From an uncultured Chloroflexus sp. (GTDB lineage Bacteria; Chloroflexota; Chloroflexia; Chloroflexales; Chloroflexaceae), in assembly GCF_937951745.1 (NCBI RefSeq), contig NZ_CALFBQ010000016.1:1-64000 (forward strand): DNA of 64,000 bases, read 5' to 3'. The notes beneath the pieces are model-generated. The model saw only the letters and a program-made list of their open reading frames with translations, did not search any database and was not told where the DNA came from. Shown piece after piece: positions 6,225 to 41,942 of this stretch. Each line of letters starts with the position of its first letter. The stretch's first letter is position 1. The position numbers were made by a program, and so were the translations under genes.

Positions 6225-7808
6225 ATGGCTCAGCGCGATACGGAATCATCCGCTACCGCCCCGTTAACCATACGCGCCCGGATCGAGGCTCTCCGCCAGC
6301 AGCGCCACCGGCTCGAACAGGGCGGCGGCCCCGACCGGATCGCTCGCCAGCATCAGGCAGGCAAACTGACTGCCCGCGAACGAGTTCACCTGCTGATTGA
6401 CCCCGATACATTTCAGGAACTTTACCTCTTTGCCCGTCATCGCTGCACTGCCTTCGGCATGGCCGACAAAGAGATGCCCGGTGAAGGTGTCGTTACCGGC
6501 TGTGGCACTGTTGATGGCCGGCAAGTGTTTGTGGCGGCACAGGATTTTACCGTTGCCGGTGGATCGGTTGGCGAGATGCATGCCGATAAGATTTGCCAAA
6601 CGATGGATCTCGCGCTGAAGTGTGGTTCGCCGTTCATTACCATCAATGACAGTGGCGGCGCCCGCATTCAAGAGGGTATTGACGCACTGAGCGGCTATGG
6701 GCGCATCTTTTATCGCAACGTTTTGCTGTCAGGCGTGGTGCCACAAATCGCGATTATCGCCGGCCCCTGCGCTGGCGGCGCTGCTTATTCACCAGCCCTG
6801 ATGGATTTCATCATTATGGTGCGCGGCAGCGAGATGTTCATCACCGGCCCTGAGGTGCTCAAACAAGTGACCGGCGAGCACGTGACCGGTGAAGAGCTGG
6901 GCGGGCCGGAAGCGCAAGTGCGCAGCGGCGTTGCGCATTTTATCGCCGAGAATGATCAAGAAGCGATCGCTATCTGCAAGCGGTTGCTCAGCTTCTTGCC
7001 GTCGAATAATCTCGAAGATCCGCCGGAACGCGGTGATGGTGAATTGCGCTTTTTTTCCGATCCGGCGCTCGATACCATCATTCCCGATGACCCGCGTGAA
7101 CCATACGATGTTATTCCGATCATTAAGCGGCTGGTCGATGACGGTGATTTTCTTGAAATTCAGCACGGCTTCGCTGATAACGCCGTGATCGGCTTTGCCC
7201 GCATTGACGGCAACACCGTAGGGATTGTCGCCAACCAACCGATGGTGATGGCCGGCGTCCTCGATATTGACGCTTCTGACAAGATTGCGCGCTTTGTACG
7301 GTTTTGCAATGCCTTCAATATTCCCTTGATCACGTTCGTTGATGTCCCCGGCTTCTTGCCCGGCGTCGCCCAAGAACGCGGCGGCATTATCCGTCACGGC
7401 GCGAAGATGCTGTTTGCCTATTCGGCGACTACTTCACCAAAGATCACGATCATCTTGCGTAAAGCCTACGGCGGCGCGTATCTGGCGATGTGCGGCAAAG
7501 ACCTCGGCGCTGATCGCGTGGCAGCGTGGCCGAGCAGCGAGATCGCGGTGATGGGGCCGGAAGGCGCGGTCAATATTATCTTCCGTGAGCAGATTAAGCA
7601 AGCGGAAGACCCGGCTGCCGCCCGCGCCGAATTTTTGCGTCTCTATCGGGCTGAATTCGCGTCACCCTACGTTGGCGCGTCCCGCAACCTGATCGATAGC
7701 ATCATTGCGCCGAGCGAAACTCGGCGCTACCTCAGCCTCGCACTTGCATCCCTTCGTACCAAGCGCGAGTTCCGCCCACAGAAGAAGCATGGATTGGTGC
7801 CAATGTAA
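6225..7808 (+). CDS. mmdA: Methylmalonyl-CoA decarboxylase alpha subunit (carboxyltransferase)
   Basis: A 527-residue acyl-CoA carboxyltransferase of the PccB/MmdA family. Known role: moves the carboxyl group between an acyl-CoA and enzyme-bound biotin. Two crotonase-like halves are visible, with the oxyanion-hole segments 'GGARIQEG' and 'GPCAGGAAYSPAL' in the first half and 'GFLPGVAQE' and 'KAYGGAYLAM' in the second. The start at 6225 has GGGAGGG (6212-6218) in front; the in-frame codons upstream are non-coding in character. Because the next genes encode an OadG-like subunit, a biotin carrier and an OadB-like membrane pump, this is best read as the decarboxylating enzyme of a Na+ pump rather than as propionyl-CoA carboxylase; glutaconyl-CoA is an alternative substrate. 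Methylmalonyl-CoA fits the epimerase encoded at 24151. Confidence 0.85.
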   Translation: MAQRDTESSATAPLTIRARIEALRQQRHRLEQGGGPDRIARQHQAGKLTARERVHLLIDPDTFQELYLFARHRCTAFGMADKEMPGEGVVTGCGTVDGRQVFVAAQDFTVAGGSVGEMHADKICQTMDLALKCGSPFITINDSGGARIQEGIDALSGYGRIFYRNVLLSGVVPQIAIIAGPCAGGAAYSPALMDFIIMVRGSEMFITGPEVLKQVTGEHVTGEELGGPEAQVRSGVAHFIAENDQEAIAICKRLLSFLPSNNLEDPPERGDGELRFFSDPALDTIIPDDPREPYDVIPIIKRLVDDGDFLEIQHGFADNAVIGFARIDGNTVGIVANQPMVMAGVLDIDASDKIARFVRFCNAFNIPLITFVDVPGFLPGVAQERGGIIRHGAKMLFAYSATTSPKITIILRKAYGGAYLAMCGKDLGADRVAAWPSSEIAVMGPEGAVNIIFREQIKQAEDPAAARAEFLRLYRAEFASPYVGASRNLIDSIIAPSETRRYLSLALASLRTKREFRPQKKHGLVPM

Positions 7809-32392: not shown

Positions 32393-33565
32393 ATGACAAC
32401 GGGTATCACCCTCAACTTGCAACGCCATTATCTCACCATCGCCGAGCACATGCGCACGATTATCTCATTCGATGGCGAGGGCCGCCCGATCGTGGCGTTT
32501 CGCCACGGCGCCAACTACATGCGCGGTCTCAGCGGCGAGGTCTTGCGCAAGCGGGTGCTCGCCCCCGGCCAAAAAGAACGGCGCAAGCTCGACGACGCCG
32601 AGCGACGCACGATCTTGGCTGAACTGCTGGCTGAGACCGAACGGATGATCGAGCAGATCGAAACCACAGCGCCGCTGGAGGCGTGCAACTGGCTTGAGCG
32701 GATCCGGCGCTGGGATGTTGAGCGGCTCGAAGCTGAGCGCGAGCGGTTTCGCTCCGTCTACAAGCCAATCAGTATCTTGCCGCCGGATCAGTATCGCGCA
32801 CTGGTGTTGCAAGCGACTGAGGGTTGTAGCTGGAACCGCTGCCATTTTTGCACGTTTTACCGCGATCGCGCCTTTCGCATTCATGCACCGGCCTCGTTTC
32901 GCGACCATATTCAGCGGGTGAAAGAGTTTGTCGGGGCCGGTTTAGGGTTACGGATGGCGATCTTTCTCGGTGATGCCAATGCGTTGATTATCCCGCAGCC
33001 GCGCCTGCGCGAGCTGTTGCAGGTCGTGCATGAGGAATTTACCATCGGCCCTGAGGCTAACTTCAAAGGCATTTACGCCTTTCTCGACATTTTTGGCGCA
33101 GAACGCAAAATGCTGGCCGAATACCGCGAACTGGCCGCCGCTGGCGTGCGCCGGATCTACCTTGGGCTAGAGAGCGGTGACGAGACGGTCTTTCGCCTCT
33201 TGAACAAACCGGGCTCACCGGCGGAAGCGATCGAAGCGGTGCGCACGATCAAAGCTGCCGGGATTGCGGTCGGCATAATCTTGCTGGTCGGGGCCGGCGG
33301 CGAACGATTTGCCGCCGAACACGTGCAGCATTCGCTAGCGGTACTAGCAGCGATGCCGCTCGGCCCGGATGATATCGTCTATCTTTCACCCCTGATCGTC
33401 CCGCCTGACAGCCCGTACCTTGCCCAACTACAGGCGTATGGCAGCTCCCCGTTGCCCGAAACCGCCATCAACCGCCAACTCGAAGAACTCAAACGCGGCG
33501 CGCGCGCGGTGGTCAGCCCCGGCACAAAAGTAGTGATTTACCATATCGAAGAATTTGTGTATTGA
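32393..33565 (+). CDS. Radical SAM protein with C-x4-C-x2-C cluster motif
   Basis: A 390-residue radical SAM enzyme of unknown substrate. The cluster-binding motif lies near residues 144-152 as 'GCSWNRCHFC', that is C-x4-C-x2-C instead of the standard C-x3-C-x2-C. Downstream the barrel has 'MAIFLGDANALIIP', 'RRIYLGLESGDETVF' (the usual G-x-E/S region) and 'IILLVGAGGERF'. A Glu/Arg-rich N-terminal helical region of about 130 residues comes first. There is no B12 domain or extra Cys-rich SPASM domain. It ends 130 bases before the cyclase gene. HemN-like or YgiQ-like side families are possible relatives. Confidence 0.8.
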   Translation: MTTGITLNLQRHYLTIAEHMRTIISFDGEGRPIVAFRHGANYMRGLSGEVLRKRVLAPGQKERRKLDDAERRTILAELLAETERMIEQIETTAPLEACNWLERIRRWDVERLEAERERFRSVYKPISILPPDQYRALVLQATEGCSWNRCHFCTFYRDRAFRIHAPASFRDHIQRVKEFVGAGLGLRMAIFLGDANALIIPQPRLRELLQVVHEEFTIGPEANFKGIYAFLDIFGAERKMLAEYRELAAAGVRRIYLGLESGDETVFRLLNKPGSPAEAIEAVRTIKAAGIAVGIILLVGAGGERFAAEHVQHSLAVLAAMPLGPDDIVYLSPLIVPPDSPYLAQLQAYGSSPLPETAINRQLEELKRGARAVVSPGTKVVIYHIEEFVY

Positions 33566-33695: not shown

Positions 33696-36600
33696 ATGTC
33701 TGAGCACCGATTCATCCAGATCGATCGCAACCGCATTGCCCGCTACCTCGGCGCTGCGCAGGCACAGGCGCTGCTCGATGGCAACATGCGGCCCCACGAA
33801 CTGTATGCCGCTTGCGCCTACCTTGCTAATGTCCAATACGCTCTGACGACCTACCTCCCGCGCCGGTTAGTTGCGTATCGGTTAGCCACGACTGATGACC
33901 AACCGTGGGTAGAATGGGTTGACGGCTCGCTGCTCTTCGCTGATGTGAGCGGTTCCACCGCCTTGGCCGAACGACTGAGCAGCCTTGGCCGCGAAGGGGC
34001 CGAGATTGTCACCGACACGCTCAACACCTACTTCGGGGCCTTGATTCGCCGCATCCAACAGGCCGGCGGCGATCTGATCACGTTTGGCGGCGATGCGCTG
34101 CTCGTGCTCTTTACCGGCCCCGATCACGCCAACACGGCAACGGTGGTAGCCCGTGACATGCTAGAGGCGCAAGCCGGCTTCGTGCGCGAAGTGCCGGGAA
34201 TCGGATCGTTTCCGTTCACGATGCACATCGGGGTCGAGAGTAGCCGGGTGGCGCTCGTCAGCGCCGGACGGCCAGAGTCGCTGCGCTATAGCGCGATGGG
34301 AGCCTGCGTTGAGCGAGTTGCTCGCGCTGAGGAGTTAGGTGGACGCGGTGAGATTGTGCTCGGCCCGCAGGCATGGGCGATGATTGAGGGGCGCGCCCAA
34401 GGTGAGATGCTTACCGACGGTTATGCAAAATTGCATGCGATTAGTGGCGATACACCCCACACACCGCCGCCTTCCCATGCCAATCCGCCGCCGCCGAGCC
34501 GTGATACCGCCCTTCATTTGATCTGGACGCTGGAACGGCCCAGTCCATACTTACCGCCGACTCTGGTTGACCGGATCATGATAGAACCACGGCGGCCTCA
34601 ACTGGAAGCCGATCTGCGTCCAGTCTCAATCTTGTTTGCGCAGATTGAAGGCTTAGCGCCACTGGTCGAGTCGTTGCCGCCCGCCACCATGGCGCAGGTC
34701 ATCGACGCCGTTTGGCGCGTCTGTTTCACGGCGATCGAACATTACGGCGGTTCTGTCAATAAAATTGACTTAGCGACCGAAGGCAGCAAGCTGCTGGCTA
34801 CCTTTGGCGCGCCAGTTGCCCAAGAAGATCATCACGAACGCGCGGCGCGGGCTGCGCTCGATTTGCAGCGCGCCTTCCATACCCTGACCACCGCCCAACC
34901 GGCCGGCATCGCGCTCAATCGCTTGCGCCTACGGATCGGCTTGAATAGTGGAACCGTTTTTGCCGGCAATGTTGGCGATGTTGAGCGCAAAGAATACACC
35001 GTCATGGGTGACGCGGTGAATGTCGCGGCGCGGGTGATGGCACATAGCAATTGGGGTGAAATCCGAGCGACAACTCCATTTGCGGTTAGCATCGGCACCA
35101 CGATGGTCTTTGCCGACTCACGTTCGGTCAGCGCGCGCGGCAAACGCGAACCGCTCGAACTATTGCGCTTGATCGGCGAACGTGAAGCGCCTACGCCGCA
35201 ATTCCACCATGCGATTGTTGGCCGGCGGCACGAACTGGTGTGGCTGCGCGAACGTCTAGAACTGGCGTTAACCGGTTACGGCCGTGTCGTGCGTATCAGC
35301 GGCGAAGCAGGCATTGGCAAAACGCGACTTGCCGCCGAGCTATTGGTGACAGGGGCACCCCGCACGGCCAAGATCGTGACGGTACGTTGCTTATCATACC
35401 AGCAAAGCACACCATACGCGCCATGGAGCGATGCGATGCAGGCGCTGTGCTCGATCCCCGCCGGCGCCGATCAGGCAACGCGGGCCGCCCAGTTGCGACA
35501 GGCCCTCGCCGCCGCTGCAATCGCCGATGATTGGATGCCGATTGTAGCCGATTTGGTCAAGCTGGATATTGATGACAACCCGTTAACGCGCACGCTTGAC
35601 CCAAAACAACGGCAGGAACGCCGATTTGAGATTATCCGTTCCATCATCCTCGCTATGGCTGCTACACGCGGCCTGATCCTCGTGTTTGACAATTTGCAAT
35701 GGGCCGACCGGATCTCACTTGATCTCTGGCGCTATATCGCAAGTGCGGTAGCGCAAGCGCCGATCTTCTTGTTCGGCTTACACCGCGACACCTTGTACTG
35801 GGATAACGATCCGCTAGCCGACAAAGCCGAGGTGCTCACGCTGACCGAACTGCCGGCCAGCAATAGCGCAGCGCTGATTGCCGCTATTCCCGCCGGCGCT
35901 CAGATCGATCCGCAGGTGCAAGCGCAGATCATCGCCCGCGCCGCCGGCAATCCGCTCTTCATCGAAGAATTGGTGCGGGCCGTGCAACACGGTAACACAG
36001 CGCTCGACGAGCTGCCCGACAGCTTGAGCGGCTTGCTATTAGCTCGCATCGACCAGCTTGACGAACGTTCACGGGTATTGCTGCGGGTGGCCGCCGTGGT
36101 CGGCCAGCGCTTTCCACTGCCGGTACTGCAATCGGTTTATGGCGAAGACACGCGCTGGCTGATCGAACATGTCAGCCAGCTCGACGCGCAAGAATTGACC
36201 CTGCTCGAACGCGAAGCTCCTGAACGGGTTCACACCTTCCGCCATGCGTTGCTGCACGAAGTCACCTATCAAAGTATGCTCTTCGCTCGCCGGCGTGAAC
36301 TGCACCGGCGAATCGGCGAATATCTTGAACAACGGTATGCACGTGAGCTGAACCAGCTCCGGCACGATGTGAGCAACGCGCGCCAGTTCCAGTATGTGCA
36401 GATCGGGCGCAACGGACCGATGGCGACCCGCGCCGTCCGCGCTATTGCGAGCCCGATCTTCCTGTTGGCACATCACTACCGGTTGAGCGACGCCCCGGAA
36501 CGGGCGATTCAATACCTCTTGCTAGCCGGTCATTTGGCCCGCGACGAATACGCCAACGAACAAGCAATCACCTATTATCGCTGGGCGCTTGACATTATTG

Positions 36601-38024
36601 GTGAACGGGGCGACGATCCGCGGCTGTGGGAAGCGATGGAGGCGCTCGGCGACACCTTGGCGGCGATTGGCCAGTACGATGAAGCACAGCAGACGTACCA
36701 ACGTTTACTAGCGTTAGGCAACGATCGCTTGCCGCCAGTCGTACAGGCTGAGACGTTGCGTTCGTGGGGAGCGGCGCTCGAAAAGCAAGGACATTATCAA
36801 GAGGCGCTGGAGCGTTTGCGTAGCGCAGAAGCGATCGCTAGCGCGGCGATCAACCACACGCCGCCGTTGTTGCTAGCGGCGATTGCCGCCGATCTGGCCC
36901 AGACCCTCACCCGGCTGTCAGCATTTGACGAAGCGCTGGCGATGTGCGAAGCCGGTTTGGCCCGTATCCGCAACGATCAACGCAGCATCGAGGATGAACG
37001 GATCGAGGCGGAACTTCAGCAGCAATTGGGTGTGATTTATGGCATGCGCGGACGCTACGATCTGGCCCGCTACCACTTTTTGAATGCGTTAAGCGTGCAA
37101 GAAGCGATTGACGACATCTACGGCTGCGCTCGCACCTACAACAATCTCGGCTACTTAGAGCAGTTGCAGAGCAACTATGCGGCAGCGGTCGAACTCTATG
37201 CCCACGCTGAAGAGCTGGCACGCAAGGTCAGCGCGAAATACGCCCTTTCCAGCGCGTTATTAAATGTGGCTTACGCTCATTACCGGCTGGCCAACTACGA
37301 TGCCGCCGAAGCAGCGTGCCACGACGCGCTAGCGCTGTGCGAAGAGATGGGTGATCAGCTAGGGATGGCCCAAGCCGATGATACGCTCGGCATTATTGCC
37401 TATGCGCGCGGCGATTATCAGCGCGCGCTACAGGTTTATCAGCAAGCATTACCCATCTATGCCAAACAGGACAACCAGTACCAATACGGGAATACGCTCG
37501 CAATGGCGGCGCTGGCCGCCATTGCCAACGGCGATCCCGCAACCGGTCTTACTTACGCCAATCAGGCTTACCACATCGGCAATCAGATTCAAGTGCCGCA
37601 GTTAACGGTCGAAGCCCTCTGCGCAACGGGGGAAGCGCTCTTGGCCCAAGCCTGCCAAGCTGGGCAGAGCGATGAACGCGAGCAATTGCTGCAAACCGCC
37701 GCCGATCATGCGGCACGTGCAGCGGCACTCGCCGAACAGATTGGTAGCCGGTTTGATCATGCGGTAGCTTTGCGCCTGAGCGGTGAAATTGCCGCTGAAC
37801 GCAATGAACCATTTAGCGACTACTTCACGCGCGCGATGGATATCTTTGCGACGATTAATTGTCGCTTTGAACACGCCTGCGCTGCGGCCCGCTTTGGCAA
37901 TGCCTTGCAACGTCGCAACCTTCCAGCAGCTCATCCGTATCTAGAATTGGCCCGAAATGAATTGACCACAATTGGCGCCAACGGTGAACTTCGCCGGCTG
38001 GCCAAACAAGCAGGGGAGGTGTAA
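33696..38024 (+). CDS. Soluble-adenylyl-cyclase-like protein (two cyclase domains, ATPase, TPR)
   Basis: A 1442-residue class III nucleotide cyclase laid out like mammalian sAC (ADCY10). Cyclase domain 1 (about 75-235) keeps both metal Asp, D83 in 'LFADVSGST' and D133 in 'FGGDALLV'. Domain 2 (about 308-470) has Q316 and S364 where those Asp should be, but keeps the transition-state pair N442 and R446 in 'MGDAVNVAAR'. A STAND/AAA-type ATPase follows, with P-loop 'GEAGIGKT' at 536-543 and a Walker B in 'LILVFDNLQW'. The last 500 residues are TPR repeats. ATG 33696 fits the promoter and the first conserved helix; the upstream in-frame TTG at 33555 overlaps the radical SAM gene. Its end overlaps the ribosome site of the next gene. 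Confidence 0.9.
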   Translation: MSEHRFIQIDRNRIARYLGAAQAQALLDGNMRPHELYAACAYLANVQYALTTYLPRRLVAYRLATTDDQPWVEWVDGSLLFADVSGSTALAERLSSLGREGAEIVTDTLNTYFGALIRRIQQAGGDLITFGGDALLVLFTGPDHANTATVVARDMLEAQAGFVREVPGIGSFPFTMHIGVESSRVALVSAGRPESLRYSAMGACVERVARAEELGGRGEIVLGPQAWAMIEGRAQGEMLTDGYAKLHAISGDTPHTPPPSHANPPPPSRDTALHLIWTLERPSPYLPPTLVDRIMIEPRRPQLEADLRPVSILFAQIEGLAPLVESLPPATMAQVIDAVWRVCFTAIEHYGGSVNKIDLATEGSKLLATFGAPVAQEDHHERAARAALDLQRAFHTLTTAQPAGIALNRLRLRIGLNSGTVFAGNVGDVERKEYTVMGDAVNVAARVMAHSNWGEIRATTPFAVSIGTTMVFADSRSVSARGKREPLELLRLIGEREAPTPQFHHAIVGRRHELVWLRERLELALTGYGRVVRISGEAGIGKTRLAAELLVTGAPRTAKIVTVRCLSYQQSTPYAPWSDAMQALCSIPAGADQATRAAQLRQALAAAAIADDWMPIVADLVKLDIDDNPLTRTLDPKQRQERRFEIIRSIILAMAATRGLILVFDNLQWADRISLDLWRYIASAVAQAPIFLFGLHRDTLYWDNDPLADKAEVLTLTELPASNSAALIAAIPAGAQIDPQVQAQIIARAAGNPLFIEELVRAVQHGNTALDELPDSLSGLLLARIDQLDERSRVLLRVAAVVGQRFPLPVLQSVYGEDTRWLIEHVSQLDAQELTLLEREAPERVHTFRHALLHEVTYQSMLFARRRELHRRIGEYLEQRYARELNQLRHDVSNARQFQYVQIGRNGPMATRAVRAIASPIFLLAHHYRLSDAPERAIQYLLLAGHLARDEYANEQAITYYRWALDIIGERGDDPRLWEAMEALGDTLAAIGQYDEAQQTYQRLLALGNDRLPPVVQAETLRSWGAALEKQGHYQEALERLRSAEAIASAAINHTPPLLLAAIAADLAQTLTRLSAFDEALAMCEAGLARIRNDQRSIEDERIEAELQQQLGVIYGMRGRYDLARYHFLNALSVQEAIDDIYGCARTYNNLGYLEQLQSNYAAAVELYAHAEELARKVSAKYALSSALLNVAYAHYRLANYDAAEAACHDALALCEEMGDQLGMAQADDTLGIIAYARGDYQRALQVYQQALPIYAKQDNQYQYGNTLAMAALAAIANGDPATGLTYANQAYHIGNQIQVPQLTVEALCATGEALLAQACQAGQSDEREQLLQTAADHAARAAALAEQIGSRFDHAVALRLSGEIAAERNEPFSDYFTRAMDIFATINCRFEHACAAARFGNALQRRNLPAAHPYLELARNELTTIGANGELRRLAKQAGEV

Positions 38025-38025
38025 C

Positions 38026-38244
38026 ATGTCACAGTCAGCCGTTGAGCAGGTAATTGGTCGCGCTGTCATTGATGCTGAGTTTCGTGCCCAACTGATCGCT
38101 GATGCCCGTGTAGCCTGCGCCGGCTATGATCTCACGGAAGAAGAGTTGGAAGCGCTGGAACGGCTTGATGCCGAGAGCTTGCAAGCCTTTGCCGGTAAAC
38201 TTGACCCGCGCCTGTCGAAGAGCGCCGGTCGCGGCTTTTTCTAA
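38026..38244 (+). CDS. NHLP-clan (Os1348-like) small leader-type peptide
   Basis: A 72-residue acidic peptide beginning 'MSQSAVEQVIGRAVIDAEFR', with 'AGYDLTEEELEALERLD' in the middle and a short tail 'DPRLSKSAGRGFF'. This pattern resembles the NHLP-clan small proteins annotated as Os1348/Franean1_4349 type, relatives of nitrile-hydratase-derived RiPP leaders; the match is from memory. There is no Gly-Gly cleavage site and almost no core after the leader-like part. GGGGAGG lies in the last codons of the cyclase gene and only one base separates that stop from this ATG, so translation must be coupled. No peptide-modifying cyclase, lanthionine synthetase or exporter is adjacent, apart from the radical SAM gene at 32393. 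Confidence 0.7.
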   Translation: MSQSAVEQVIGRAVIDAEFRAQLIADARVACAGYDLTEEELEALERLDAESLQAFAGKLDPRLSKSAGRGFF

Positions 38245-38282
38245 ACAATCCAAGGTGAGTGCCACTGTCAAGGAATGACGAT

Positions 38283-41200
38283 ATGCACGAGCGGAGCGCC
38301 GAACGTCCTGAACTCCATTTTGTGCCGCGCGCGCTCCGTGAATTATTTTTACCGCGCCGGATGCCGCGTAACATACGCGCAGCCGTCGAACATTGGCTCA
38401 AGGGCGAACCATTGGCGCAATTGCTGCCGGCAGCGTTGGAGGCACCATTCAGACTCGATCTCGATCTAGCTACTATCTTTGCTGAGCCAAACCAGCTCGC
38501 GATCGTCGGGCCGCCGGCCAGCGGGCGCAGCCTTGTCCTTGCGCAAATTGCCCAGCGTTGGCTCAACGATCAGCCAAGCGTACCGCTCGTGCGATTATTG
38601 CTCGCTGCGCTTGACACACCGAGCTTGACGCCGCGCGCGATTACGGTGCGCGCGTTGACCAAGCTGAATCTGGCGCCGAATCCACTCGAACACAACCTAC
38701 CTTGTCTGCTGCTGATCGATGATTGGGAAGATTTGCCGCCTGCTCGGCGCGGAATCTGGCAACGTTTCTTGACCGGCCTCGCCGAACGTTGGCCGCAAGC
38801 ACGAGTGGTCATTGCGTTGCCGCCGGGCGAATTGTGGCCGGGATTTCGCCATCACGCCATCGCACCATTGCCCGCTGAGCGATTGATTGGGTGGATCCGG
38901 CACCTCTTTCCCCATAGCGATCCACAAGCCATCCTGCCCTTGTTTGATCGCGATCCGCTGATCTTGCTGCGTGAGCGTCCGGCTGAATTGCTGTTGTTGG
39001 CGCTGACTCAGCCGCTCAGTGGTTGGCCCGTCTCGCGCGCTGCGCTGTATGAACGAGCGGCAACCTTTGCCGCGCCATTGTTGGCTACCCTCCCCGATCA
39101 GGAGAGCTGGCGCATTGGGCGCACCGCCTATCAGCATTACCAACAGGCGATCGAACTAGCGGCCCGACCGCGCCTCGACCCCACCCCCCTCTCCGATGCC
39201 GGCCCGCACCAGCACGCGCTGGTTGTGCCATTAGCATTTGGCGCCGCGCCGGATCCGCGCCCCCTAATCACCAGCCTCTATAACAGCGATCTGGCGCCAG
39301 CAGAACGGTTGTTGTTATTGGCCCGCTCCCTCCGTGAACGGCCACGGCTCGATCCAACCCTGAGCCGGCCCTTGATCGACGAGATCTGCCAGCACGGCGG
39401 GGAGGCATTGAACATGCTTGCGCCAGCATTGCCGGTGATCCTGATAGATATTAGCCGCACCCAACCAGATCAGCGTAACGCATTATTGGAACGGATCGTA
39501 AGCCAGCTCGCGCCGGCGAATAGCATAGCGTTGCTGATTACTCTGCTCGACACTAGTGATGCCCCGCCGACCTTGCGCTGGCACGCGATCGATCTACTCT
39601 GCCGGCAACAGATTTTACCACCGCCCCTGCCCGCCTATGCCGATCTGATCAGCCAAGCCGGTCGCTGCCTCCTCGCTGTGAGTCGCGCCAGCACCATTGA
39701 TCAGTTAGCCGATCCGGCAGTGCATCTTGGCCTGCGCTTGCTCCTCAGCGGCGCAGCCGGTGAGGAGCGGCAACAGCTCATTGCGCACTATGTGCTGCGG
39801 CAAACAACCCTGCCAGCCAGCCTGCGCGCACTTGCGCCAGCAGCGCTACCCCTCGCCGAATTGCCACAGGCCGCCATTGATCAAACCGCCGAGGTGCGAC
39901 AAGCGGCCCGCGCAGTCTGGTTGCGCACCGGCCATCTTGATCAACTAGCCCGCTTTGTCATTCAACCGAATCATCCGTGGCTGGCCCGTGATGAAGCGCT
40001 CGCCGATCTGGCTGCAACCCCTGCCGGCCATCCACTTCTAGCTGGGTTCGCATTGAGCAGCCGTTTGCCGGTTGATCTGCGCTTGCGCGCTATTAGCCGG
40101 CTGCATCGCTTGCCACACGGTGTTGACCTGCTCACCCGCTTGTTGCACGCAGTCGATGAACCGGCAATTATCCGGGCTGCTGCGGCTCGCCAATTGGCTC
40201 ACTATCCACATGCCGTTGGGCTGATCAGCCCATTCTTAGGCCAGCAACACCCACCGCTGGTGCGCCGGGCAGTCGCCCACACGCTGAGCGCATTGGCTAC
40301 ACATAACCATCCATCAGTGCTAGCCGCGCGCACCACCCTCCTCGCTGCGCTCGATCGACCCGATCTTGACGCCACGTTAACCACGACCATCATCATGGCG
40401 CTTGGCCAACACGGTGGCAAGCATGCGTTGGCCGCACTGGGTCGCTTGCTCGCGCCCACGTATGGCGTCGACTTGTTGGAAACGTGGATCACCGCGTTAC
40501 CGGCGCTGATCGGGCCAGCCGATCAATGGCTGCCCCAAGCTGAAGAGCCGGCCACGCGCGCCCTCTTGGCCGATGTGATAGTGACAACCGACACCTTAGC
40601 CGGTGCAATGGCAATCCCGCTCGACCGGCCTTCGGCCCTAATCACCCGCCACGTGTTACGAATTACCAGCGCAGCAGCACACGCTATCGGGATGATCGGA
40701 CGCAATCAACCCACACTGGCCCCAGCCATCAACGCTTTGATCAGCGTCGCTTTACACGACACCAGCGCGCCGCGCCCGCTGGGTGAGCTATTGGCTGCCG
40801 ATCCATCCACTGATCTAACCGCCATTGCGCGTAACGCCCAGTACGATACCCCCTTGCGCGCTGCGGCGCTGCAAGCGATTGCCGAATGGCCTGATGGTGC
40901 AGCTCTGTTGCTACGCCTCGCAGAAGAAACTGAGGCAGACCTTGCCTGTGCCGCGCTTGACCGCATTGGGCCGCCATGCTCCGCACCGATGATCGAGAGG
41001 CTGTTGTGCCTTGCCGGCGCAGACAGCACCGAACCGGTGCGGCTGGCAGCGTTGCAAGCGTTGGGCCGCAGCGCCGACCCCGCTGCAACGCCGGCGCTGA
41101 TGGCCATCGCCACCAACGAACAGGAGCCGCCAGCCATCCGTGCCGCGGCGTTCGATGCTGCAGTCGCCCCACCGGTAGAACAGATCATCGAATGTATTAC

Positions 41201-41942
41201 CATGCAACCCGACCCCATTCGCAGCGCGGCGCTGCGCGCGCTTAGCCGGAGCGATCGCCCAGTTCCAGCCAACATGCTGCACCGGCTAGCATTTGACGCT
41301 GATCGGGTTTGTGCGCTCGCTGCCGTCAACGCGCTCGCCAGCCAAGCCGAAACTACAACGCCCATTTTAGCCCGCGTTATGCGGAGTCATCCCGATCTGG
41401 CTGTGCGCCTCGCCGCTGCCGCTGCACTCAACCCAACCGCCGTCAATGACACGATACCGGTCTTGGTCGAAGCATTGCTCACGCCATACCCCGCCCTGCA
41501 AACGCAAGCGTTCACGCTGCTCGCCGCCGCCGATCCGTACCACCCGACGCTCCGGCAACTACTCATCGATCCGCATGCCCCTGATGTATTGAAATTGCTC
41601 GCTCTGAACCATCTCAGAAGCGTGGCGCCGGCCGATCCGCTTATTCGCGCGGTGGCAATCGATCCAAACGCCGCAGAACCACTCCGTTGCCACGCGATTG
41701 TCGCGCTGAGCCAGCACACCGATCACGATGTCATCGAGTGCTTGGCCCATTTGGCTGTGGCCAGCGGCCAACCGCTTAAGGTGCGCCACGTCGCGGTGAC
41801 GGCGCTCGACCAGCACTGCGCAGAGTTGACCAACGTCGCTGCATTGCAGGCACTAGCAGCACTGGCTACTGCGCCTAACCCGGAGGTGGCGCTATGGGCG
41901 GGCGAAGCACTGCTGGATCGGTTAGCAAGCGCGAGTTTGTAA
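38283..41942 (+). CDS. P-loop NTPase-like protein with long HEAT-repeat array
   Basis: A 1219-residue protein. The N-terminal 300 residues look like a NACHT/STAND NTPase: a Walker A-like 'GPPASGRS' (76-83) with Arg82 in place of the essential Lys, and a Walker B-like 'LLLIDDWED' (142-150). From about residue 330 onward come HEAT-type repeats of about 30 residues rich in Ala and Leu ('PVRLAALQALGRS', 'AVRLAAAAALN', 'VRHVAVTALDQH'). ATG 38283 is preferred over the GTG at 38259 because AAGGA lies eight bases in front. It begins 38 bases after the NHLP-like peptide. Possibly a scaffold or sensor working with the cyclase protein; the function is not known. Confidence 0.8.
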   Translation: MHERSAERPELHFVPRALRELFLPRRMPRNIRAAVEHWLKGEPLAQLLPAALEAPFRLDLDLATIFAEPNQLAIVGPPASGRSLVLAQIAQRWLNDQPSVPLVRLLLAALDTPSLTPRAITVRALTKLNLAPNPLEHNLPCLLLIDDWEDLPPARRGIWQRFLTGLAERWPQARVVIALPPGELWPGFRHHAIAPLPAERLIGWIRHLFPHSDPQAILPLFDRDPLILLRERPAELLLLALTQPLSGWPVSRAALYERAATFAAPLLATLPDQESWRIGRTAYQHYQQAIELAARPRLDPTPLSDAGPHQHALVVPLAFGAAPDPRPLITSLYNSDLAPAERLLLLARSLRERPRLDPTLSRPLIDEICQHGGEALNMLAPALPVILIDISRTQPDQRNALLERIVSQLAPANSIALLITLLDTSDAPPTLRWHAIDLLCRQQILPPPLPAYADLISQAGRCLLAVSRASTIDQLADPAVHLGLRLLLSGAAGEERQQLIAHYVLRQTTLPASLRALAPAALPLAELPQAAIDQTAEVRQAARAVWLRTGHLDQLARFVIQPNHPWLARDEALADLAATPAGHPLLAGFALSSRLPVDLRLRAISRLHRLPHGVDLLTRLLHAVDEPAIIRAAAARQLAHYPHAVGLISPFLGQQHPPLVRRAVAHTLSALATHNHPSVLAARTTLLAALDRPDLDATLTTTIIMALGQHGGKHALAALGRLLAPTYGVDLLETWITALPALIGPADQWLPQAEEPATRALLADVIVTTDTLAGAMAIPLDRPSALITRHVLRITSAAAHAIGMIGRNQPTLAPAINALISVALHDTSAPRPLGELLAADPSTDLTAIARNAQYDTPLRAAALQAIAEWPDGAALLLRLAEETEADLACAALDRIGPPCSAPMIERLLCLAGADSTEPVRLAALQALGRSADPAATPALMAIATNEQEPPAIRAAAFDAAVAPPVEQIIECITMQPDPIRSAALRALSRSDRPVPANMLHRLAFDADRVCALAAVNALASQAETTTPILARVMRSHPDLAVRLAAAAALNPTAVNDTIPVLVEALLTPYPALQTQAFTLLAAADPYHPTLRQLLIDPHAPDVLKLLALNHLRSVAPADPLIRAVAIDPNAAEPLRCHAIVALSQHTDHDVIECLAHLAVASGQPLKVRHVAVTALDQHCAELTNVAALQALAALATAPNPEVALWAGEALLDRLASASL

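Follow-up and report, generated by a model that had tools for sequence, protein, structure and literature searches.

A 72-amino-acid peptide of the Os1348 family, encoded immediately behind a soluble-adenylyl-cyclase (sAC)-like protein of 1442 residues in the window (the whole analysed stretch of 64,000 nucleotides), is probably a dedicated small accessory subunit, regulatory or adaptor, of one lineage of such cyclases, to which it would bind, and not the precursor of a RiPP. The peptide is co-encoded with the cyclase across its order, one of filamentous bacteria, and is under selection, and RiPP partners conserved beside the pair are absent. The peptide family and its fold were already known, whereas the genomic context, namely the retention of the peptide with the cyclase, is new.

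Peptide gene, family and fold

The cyclase gene ends with TAA at 38022–38024 and the peptide gene begins with ATG at 38026, leaving a single base between them (Table 1). The open reading frame, the one-base gap and the ribosome-binding site lying inside the cyclase gene, all described in the earlier note, are borne out by the sequence, and AGGAG-like sites also precede the peptide start in relatives. The fixed stoichiometry that had been deduced from this arrangement does not follow from spacing alone: the one-base gap is a genus-level trait (seven of the eight members of the window's genus), and outside the genus the distance is mostly 0–52 nt. Among the eight members of the genus, pooled pS is 0.575 and pN 0.054 for the peptide, with dN/dS of 0.01–0.10 per pair; the 72-residue frame is therefore a real, constrained protein.

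Table 1. Positions of the peptide gene, its partner and neighbouring genes in the window.
Feature	Position	Strand	Basis
72-aa Os1348-family peptide gene, stop included	38026–38244	+	Sequence, profile matches, dN/dS
Ribosome-binding site GGGGAGG	38013–38019	+	Sequence; within last codons of cyclase gene
Peptide helical body, residues 1–59, Os1348/NHLP-like fold (predicted)	38026–38202	+	Profile, AlphaFold2, Foldseek
Peptide flexible near-invariant tail LDPRLSKSAGRGFF, residues 59–72	38200–38241	+	Alignment columns, predicted model
1442-aa sAC-like protein gene (C1, C2, AAA/STAND NTPase, TPR)	33696–38024	+	Pfam/profile matches, structure-relative alignment
Cyclase domain C1, about residues 53–240	33852–34415	+	Alignment to human ADCY10
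Cyclase domain C2, about residues 303–461	34602–35078	+	Pfam and ADCY10 alignment
AAA_16/STAND NTPase domain, residues 507–691	35214–35768	+	Pfam
TPR region, about residues 976–1403; proposed docking site	36621–37904	+	Profiles, conservation, covariation
HEAT-repeat protein gene, start codon unsure	38259–41942	+	Pfam; co-directional neighbour in window's genus only
Radical-SAM gene upstream of cyclase	32393–33565	+	Profiles; neighbour in window's genus only

The peptide scores well above the cut-offs of two curated profiles, PF14407 (90.4 bits; cut-off 48) and NF038399, "Os1348 family NHLP clan protein" (88.1 bits; cut-off 40), the latter being matched by all 38 members of group A, a peptide subgroup assigned by tail pattern. 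With the NHLP leader model TIGR03793 the window peptide reaches 13.4 bits, far below the cut-off of 50.9, and similarity at E up to 0.001 is found in 19 of the 38 group A members. The closest copies on named contigs belong to Chloroflexus and relatives; a plasmid search gave one weak match (E 0.7) and a phage search for the peptide none.

An AlphaFold2 model built with 53 aligned relatives has five helices over residues 3–59 followed by a low-confidence tail (mean pLDDT 75.6; under 50 for most of residues 65–72). Chains of 6lk7, the crystal structure of Os1348, fill the first three places among the Foldseek matches of the model in the PDB (query TM 0.70–0.78, probability 1.00, E only 0.05–0.07), and the sequence profile matches 6lk7 at E 2.6e-12, with nitrile hydratase alpha chains next. 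The peptide is thus predicted to share the Os1348 fold. Os1348 of Pseudomonas sp. Os17 is reported to form a dimer in the crystal and to have a flexible C-terminus (PMC7726476); the related precursors PflA and PosA are presented as having an NHLP-type leader without a double-Gly site (PMC12636437).

The C-terminal tail is short and conserved. Thirteen residues follow the last predicted helix, in agreement with the earlier statement that the peptide has almost no core. The accompanying statement that it has no Gly-Gly site applies to the window peptide and does not extend to the subgroup, as Gly occupies both positions 67 and 68 in 18 of the 37 relatives of 72 residues, leaving four residues after the site. 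Leu59, Asp60, Arg62, Lys65, Gly68 and Gly70 are invariant in these 37 peptides, as is Cys31, the invariance of Lys65, Gly68 and Gly70 being partly built in by the tail-pattern assignment and that of Leu59, Asp60, Arg62 and Cys31 lying outside the pattern; residue 71 is Phe in 31 peptides and Leu in 6 (a single 73-residue member, L063, was excluded from the column counts). Among these 37 peptides no variable core follows a conserved leader: length is fixed and the tail is near-invariant.

The partner cyclase and its linkage to the peptide

On its domain content, the partner is classed as an sAC-like class III cyclase with two cyclase domains, an NTPase domain and a TPR half. Its Pfam matches comprise class III cyclase domains, an AAA_16/STAND NTPase and TPR repeats, and include no kinase, HTH or Rap domain. 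Among proteins of solved structure it is best matched by human soluble adenylyl cyclase, to which residues 53–450, covering both catalytic domains, were aligned. The aligned C1 and C2 catalytic motifs are present in the window protein and differ by few changes in the orthologues inspected; we take the C1 motifs to carry the metal aspartates and the C2 motifs the Lys, Thr, Asn and Arg of catalytic role. The gene start was set at an ATG within a frame that is open from TTG at 33555. Bicarbonate activation of a Chloroflexus cyclase is recorded in a review citing Kobayashi et al. 2004 (PMC11006738).

PF14407 is matched at E up to 0.001 in 54 of the 82 genomes of the order and above its cut-off in 42. 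Sixty loci besides the window, and then seven more within the order, were read; G016:C47, G054:C1232, G039:C917 and G020:C492 were left out among the 78 matches listed in the order. An intact group A copy is present in 38 genomes (37 of 72 residues and L063 of 73), and further copies are cut by a contig end in genome G061 and broken by a stop in G014. Orthologous cyclase genes lie upstream of 37 of the 38 intact peptides, 35 of them at 0–52 nt, one at 242 nt (G039) and one at 512 nt (G015); G013 has none. With G061 included, where the two genes overlap, the cyclase is upstream in 38 of 39 cases, in 36 of them within 52 nt or overlapping. Viewed from the other gene, the peptide is present at 38 of the 39 cyclase orthologues whose 3′ end is on the contig (those of G002, G028, G037 and G066, which stop at the contig edge before the peptide place, are left out of the 39). 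The exception is G059, in which the cyclase is kept without the peptide and the next gene is on the opposite strand.

In a tree of 43 cyclases, all 30 linked orthologues and the G059 protein group together on a single branch (support 100), outside which 12 paralogues fall. An all-frame profile search detected no peptide near 17 paralogous cyclases, including those on contigs C4, C14 and C18 of the window's own genome (2 of the 17 loci, L151 and L165, end inside the cyclase), its only clear match being the known second copy on C26. The pair stays together while its flanking genes change, in both of the families that carry it. As the linkage is shared by descent, it counts as one event and not as 38, the number of genomes not being a number of events, and a single gain followed by few losses is the best reading of the pair.

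Identity to the window protein over the TPR region (residues 960–1320) is 0.46–0.58 in 22 distant orthologues and 0.12–0.22 in 12 paralogues, a difference that any orthologue group may show; among themselves the paralogues hold the TPR region less well than their own catalytic domains. G014 lacks the cyclase orthologue, and its peptide is broken. Several observations count against a subunit role: family members elsewhere are RiPP precursors, the intact peptide of G013 persists without the cyclase, the gaps in G039 and G015 are wide, the G059 cyclase does not have a visibly relaxed TPR region after peptide loss, and a nitroreductase gene, of a class also found in RiPP clusters, lies 14 nt after the peptide in G013 and G015. 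G013, G014 and G015 (loci L082, L096 and L081) represent a single genus, in which the cyclase is either 512 nt off or gone.

Neighbouring genes, wider family and rival explanations

The HEAT-repeat gene is adjacent at each of the eight group A loci in the window's genus and at no other intact locus (0 of 30); as a neighbour confined to that genus, the HEAT protein was rejected as the partner of the peptide. The radical-SAM gene upstream adjoins the pair in seven of the eight loci of the genus, the contig of the eighth ending first. It was rejected as a conserved modifying partner since in the rest of the order it is found apart from the pair, several group A genomes lack it, and genomes that have no such peptide carry it. 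Its product has weak matches to the PhpK and RiPP C-methyltransferase families and is widespread in the order. In other genera a convergent gene often comes next, and the following genes that were scanned differ in kind (isocitrate dehydrogenase family, histidine kinases, a peptidase, PFOR).

A Pfam scan covered 103 of the 107 neighbouring proteins outside the genus; the first 25 of the 91 families found include no YcaO, LanC, radical SAM or C39, and single RiPP enzymes may lie beyond these 25. A nitroreductase occurs twice in this tally, in G013 and G015, and in these two genomes only, and no RiPP-modifying enzyme is conserved beside the pair. Neither YcaO nor C39 peptidase was found in the window's own genome (99 per cent complete), and among the 38 group A genomes YcaO occurs in one (G011) and C39 peptidase in three (G003, G015, G056). 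True clusters are detectable with the same searches, as on contig C846 of G063, of the same order. This locus (L124) combines three family peptides with a ThcOx-type oxidase and a C39 peptidase and, as judged from its gene content, is likely to be a true NHLP-type RiPP cluster.

The wider Os1348/PF14407 family has two uses, one linked to RiPPs and one to signalling. Within the order, a SpoIIE-type phosphatase gene follows the peptide within 400 nt at 21 of the 28 other family places read, and most SpoIIE-linked peptides have a tail with Trp in its last residues. The second family peptide of the window's own genome is of this kind (L050, G000:C26, 23–238, followed by a SpoIIE-type phosphatase at 265–1749). 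Outside the order, 33 places were fetched and their neighbours scanned in part. Eight places have a STAND-TPR-BTAD regulator nearby, though not always as the adjacent gene (L107, L120, L123, L129, L130, L138, L142, L143); in L107 and L129 a DUF5317 protein intervenes between peptide and regulator. In the same class as the window and outside its order, a zinc-ribbon cyclase-AAA-TPR protein (L118, 5553–9236) is followed by two tandem family peptides ending GFFRLGP, an arrangement counted in favour of a subunit role. In L115, L117, L121, L131 and L132, heads ending in QRMSKAF are followed by Gly/Ala/Ser/Asp-rich, partly repetitive tails of 150–450 residues. A literature search over titles and abstract starts of open-licence papers found no description of a cyclase or SpoIIE partner for the family.

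The refuting condition that the earlier note set for its own reading, homologues without cyclase or HEAT neighbours and with dedicated RiPP enzymes, has a mixed outcome. Homologues with RiPP enzymes do occur in the wider family, elsewhere in the phylum included, and not in the cyclase-linked subgroup: family peptides adjoin radical SAM enzymes in L093, L108 and L135, an MNIO-type enzyme in L134 and ThcOx in L124, and homologues are also reported from Pseudomonas (PMC7726476, PMC12636437). The cyclase use is thus a property of the subgroup and not of the family. In L134 the MNIO-type enzyme (MbnB/TglH/ChrH; 6237–7109, minus strand) lies 5 nt upstream of a peptide ending GCH, likely a RiPP pair. 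PF14407 is also counted among peptides linked to ATP-grasp enzymes (PMC8939145).

RiPP precursors of the conserved-product type, among them PqqA and the mycofactocin precursor, are the model for an unlikely alternative, in which the tail would be a short core acted on by modifying enzymes whose genes lie elsewhere and the cyclase would sense or regulate the process, on the pattern of the kinase/cyclase fusion named for TOMM systems. The family does include RiPP precursors, and a conserved tail in which Lys, Gly and Arg do not vary could serve as a substrate, but this tail is no further than 13 residues from the last helix, no RiPP enzyme is conserved beside the pair (within the 25 families tallied), and the window's own genome has neither YcaO nor C39. 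The cyclase itself matches TIGR03903, the TOMM kinase/cyclase model, over residues 339–1044 at 199.5 bits, below the cut-off of 705.75, and a large Ser/Thr kinase is described alongside NHLP-Burk precursors in an earlier study (Haft et al., PMC2887384). TOMM kinase/cyclase membership was rejected on the score below cut-off together with the lack of a kinase domain in the protein and of YcaO in the genome.

Once the other regions are removed, the distances of the tail correlate with those of TPR residues 1081–1260 at 0.39–0.44 in three taxon sets (0 of 500 permutations in each), this being one cell of a comparison of 9 windows by 7 regions in which other cells reach 0.3–0.5. The covariation is no more than a hint, which puts the TPR array first among the candidate sites. 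It would also suit a second alternative, distinctly improbable, in which the peptide is the propeptide of a short C-terminal pheromone read by the upstream TPR array. In the RRNPP systems of Firmicutes, a receptor gene is followed by a propeptide gene, and here too a TPR protein gene precedes a small gene with a conserved C-terminal tail. However, the folded body is itself strongly conserved, the peptide has, as judged by eye, no export signal or hydrophobic N-terminus, and the tail, in contrast to pheromone types, is almost the same from genus to genus.

Operon hitchhiking, in which a peptide with its own cellular role is held behind the cyclase by shared transcription and translation only, would accommodate G013 and the wide gaps in G039 and G015, but is the least probable of the alternatives given that the pair is kept while its flanks differ in both carrying families and that in G014 a broken peptide goes with the absence of the cyclase orthologue.

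Proposed role and comparison with known systems

Under the favoured reading, that of a dedicated accessory subunit, the ribosome-binding site at the end of the cyclase gene would cause both proteins to be made together. Both the folded helical body and the flexible tail, LDxR[LI][ST]Kx[AG]GxG[FL]x, would then take part in binding to the cyclase, the TPR array at the C-terminus of the enzyme being the most likely site, and the bound peptide would set its activity, assembly or stability. The peptide would work whole, and no natural product would be released. The earlier note had likewise proposed a signal or adaptor instead of a precursor. This part of the proposal, a leader-type fold used as a cyclase partner, is supported by persistence of the pair across the order without conserved RiPP enzymes, and the link to the HEAT protein is not supported.

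More tentatively, microproteins with the Os1348 fold may form a general, phylum-wide class of small subunits for signalling, every member being encoded together with an output protein of its own (sAC-like enzymes, SpoIIE-type phosphatases and perhaps STAND-TPR-BTAD regulators), docking by the folded body and acting by the short C-terminal tail. RiPP leaders and signalling subunits would in that case be two uses of one protein-docking module, either of which could be ancestral; this wider proposal is possible, with somewhat less than even confidence.

If the subunit reading is correct, a fold that serves RiPP leaders in enzyme recognition has a further use as a permanent subunit of signalling enzymes, and the pair gives direct experimental access to the control of bacterial relatives of human sAC through their NTPase-TPR halves. 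As most places read in the order adjoin a cyclase or a phosphatase, a match to PF14407 or NF038399 should not by itself be taken for a natural-product cluster.

Among known systems, the Os1348 family or Frankia_peptide group (NF038399, PF14407; Os1348, PflA/PosA) resembles the window peptide in score, predicted helical fold and flexible C-terminus, and PflA also lacks a double-Gly site. The window unit differs from Os1348, PflA and PosA in having no GNAT, HEXXH or SagB/MNIO enzymes, in its short, near-invariant tail and in having a cyclase as partner. The cyclase-NTPase-TPR part of TOMM kinase/cyclases (TIGR03903) is similar to that of the window cyclase, whereas the window protein has two cyclase domains and no kinase domain, and its genome has no YcaO. 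Human ADCY10 has in common with the window cyclase the C1–C2 pair, the NTPase and the TPR half; we know of no Os1348-type partner of sAC. NHLP leader peptides (TIGR03793; Haft et al. 2010, PMC2887384) have distant sequence similarity to group A, in contrast to which the window peptide falls below the cut-off and has no core, Gly-Gly site or C39 exporter. The bicarbonate-responsive Chloroflexus cyclase (Kobayashi et al. 2004, as cited in PMC11006738) provides an sAC-like comparison, although it may be a different cyclase of that genus. RRNPP pairs share with the window the placement of a TPR protein directly before a small gene, whereas the present pair combines a folded, conserved peptide body with a cyclase output and has neither an HTH or Rap domain nor a visible export signal.
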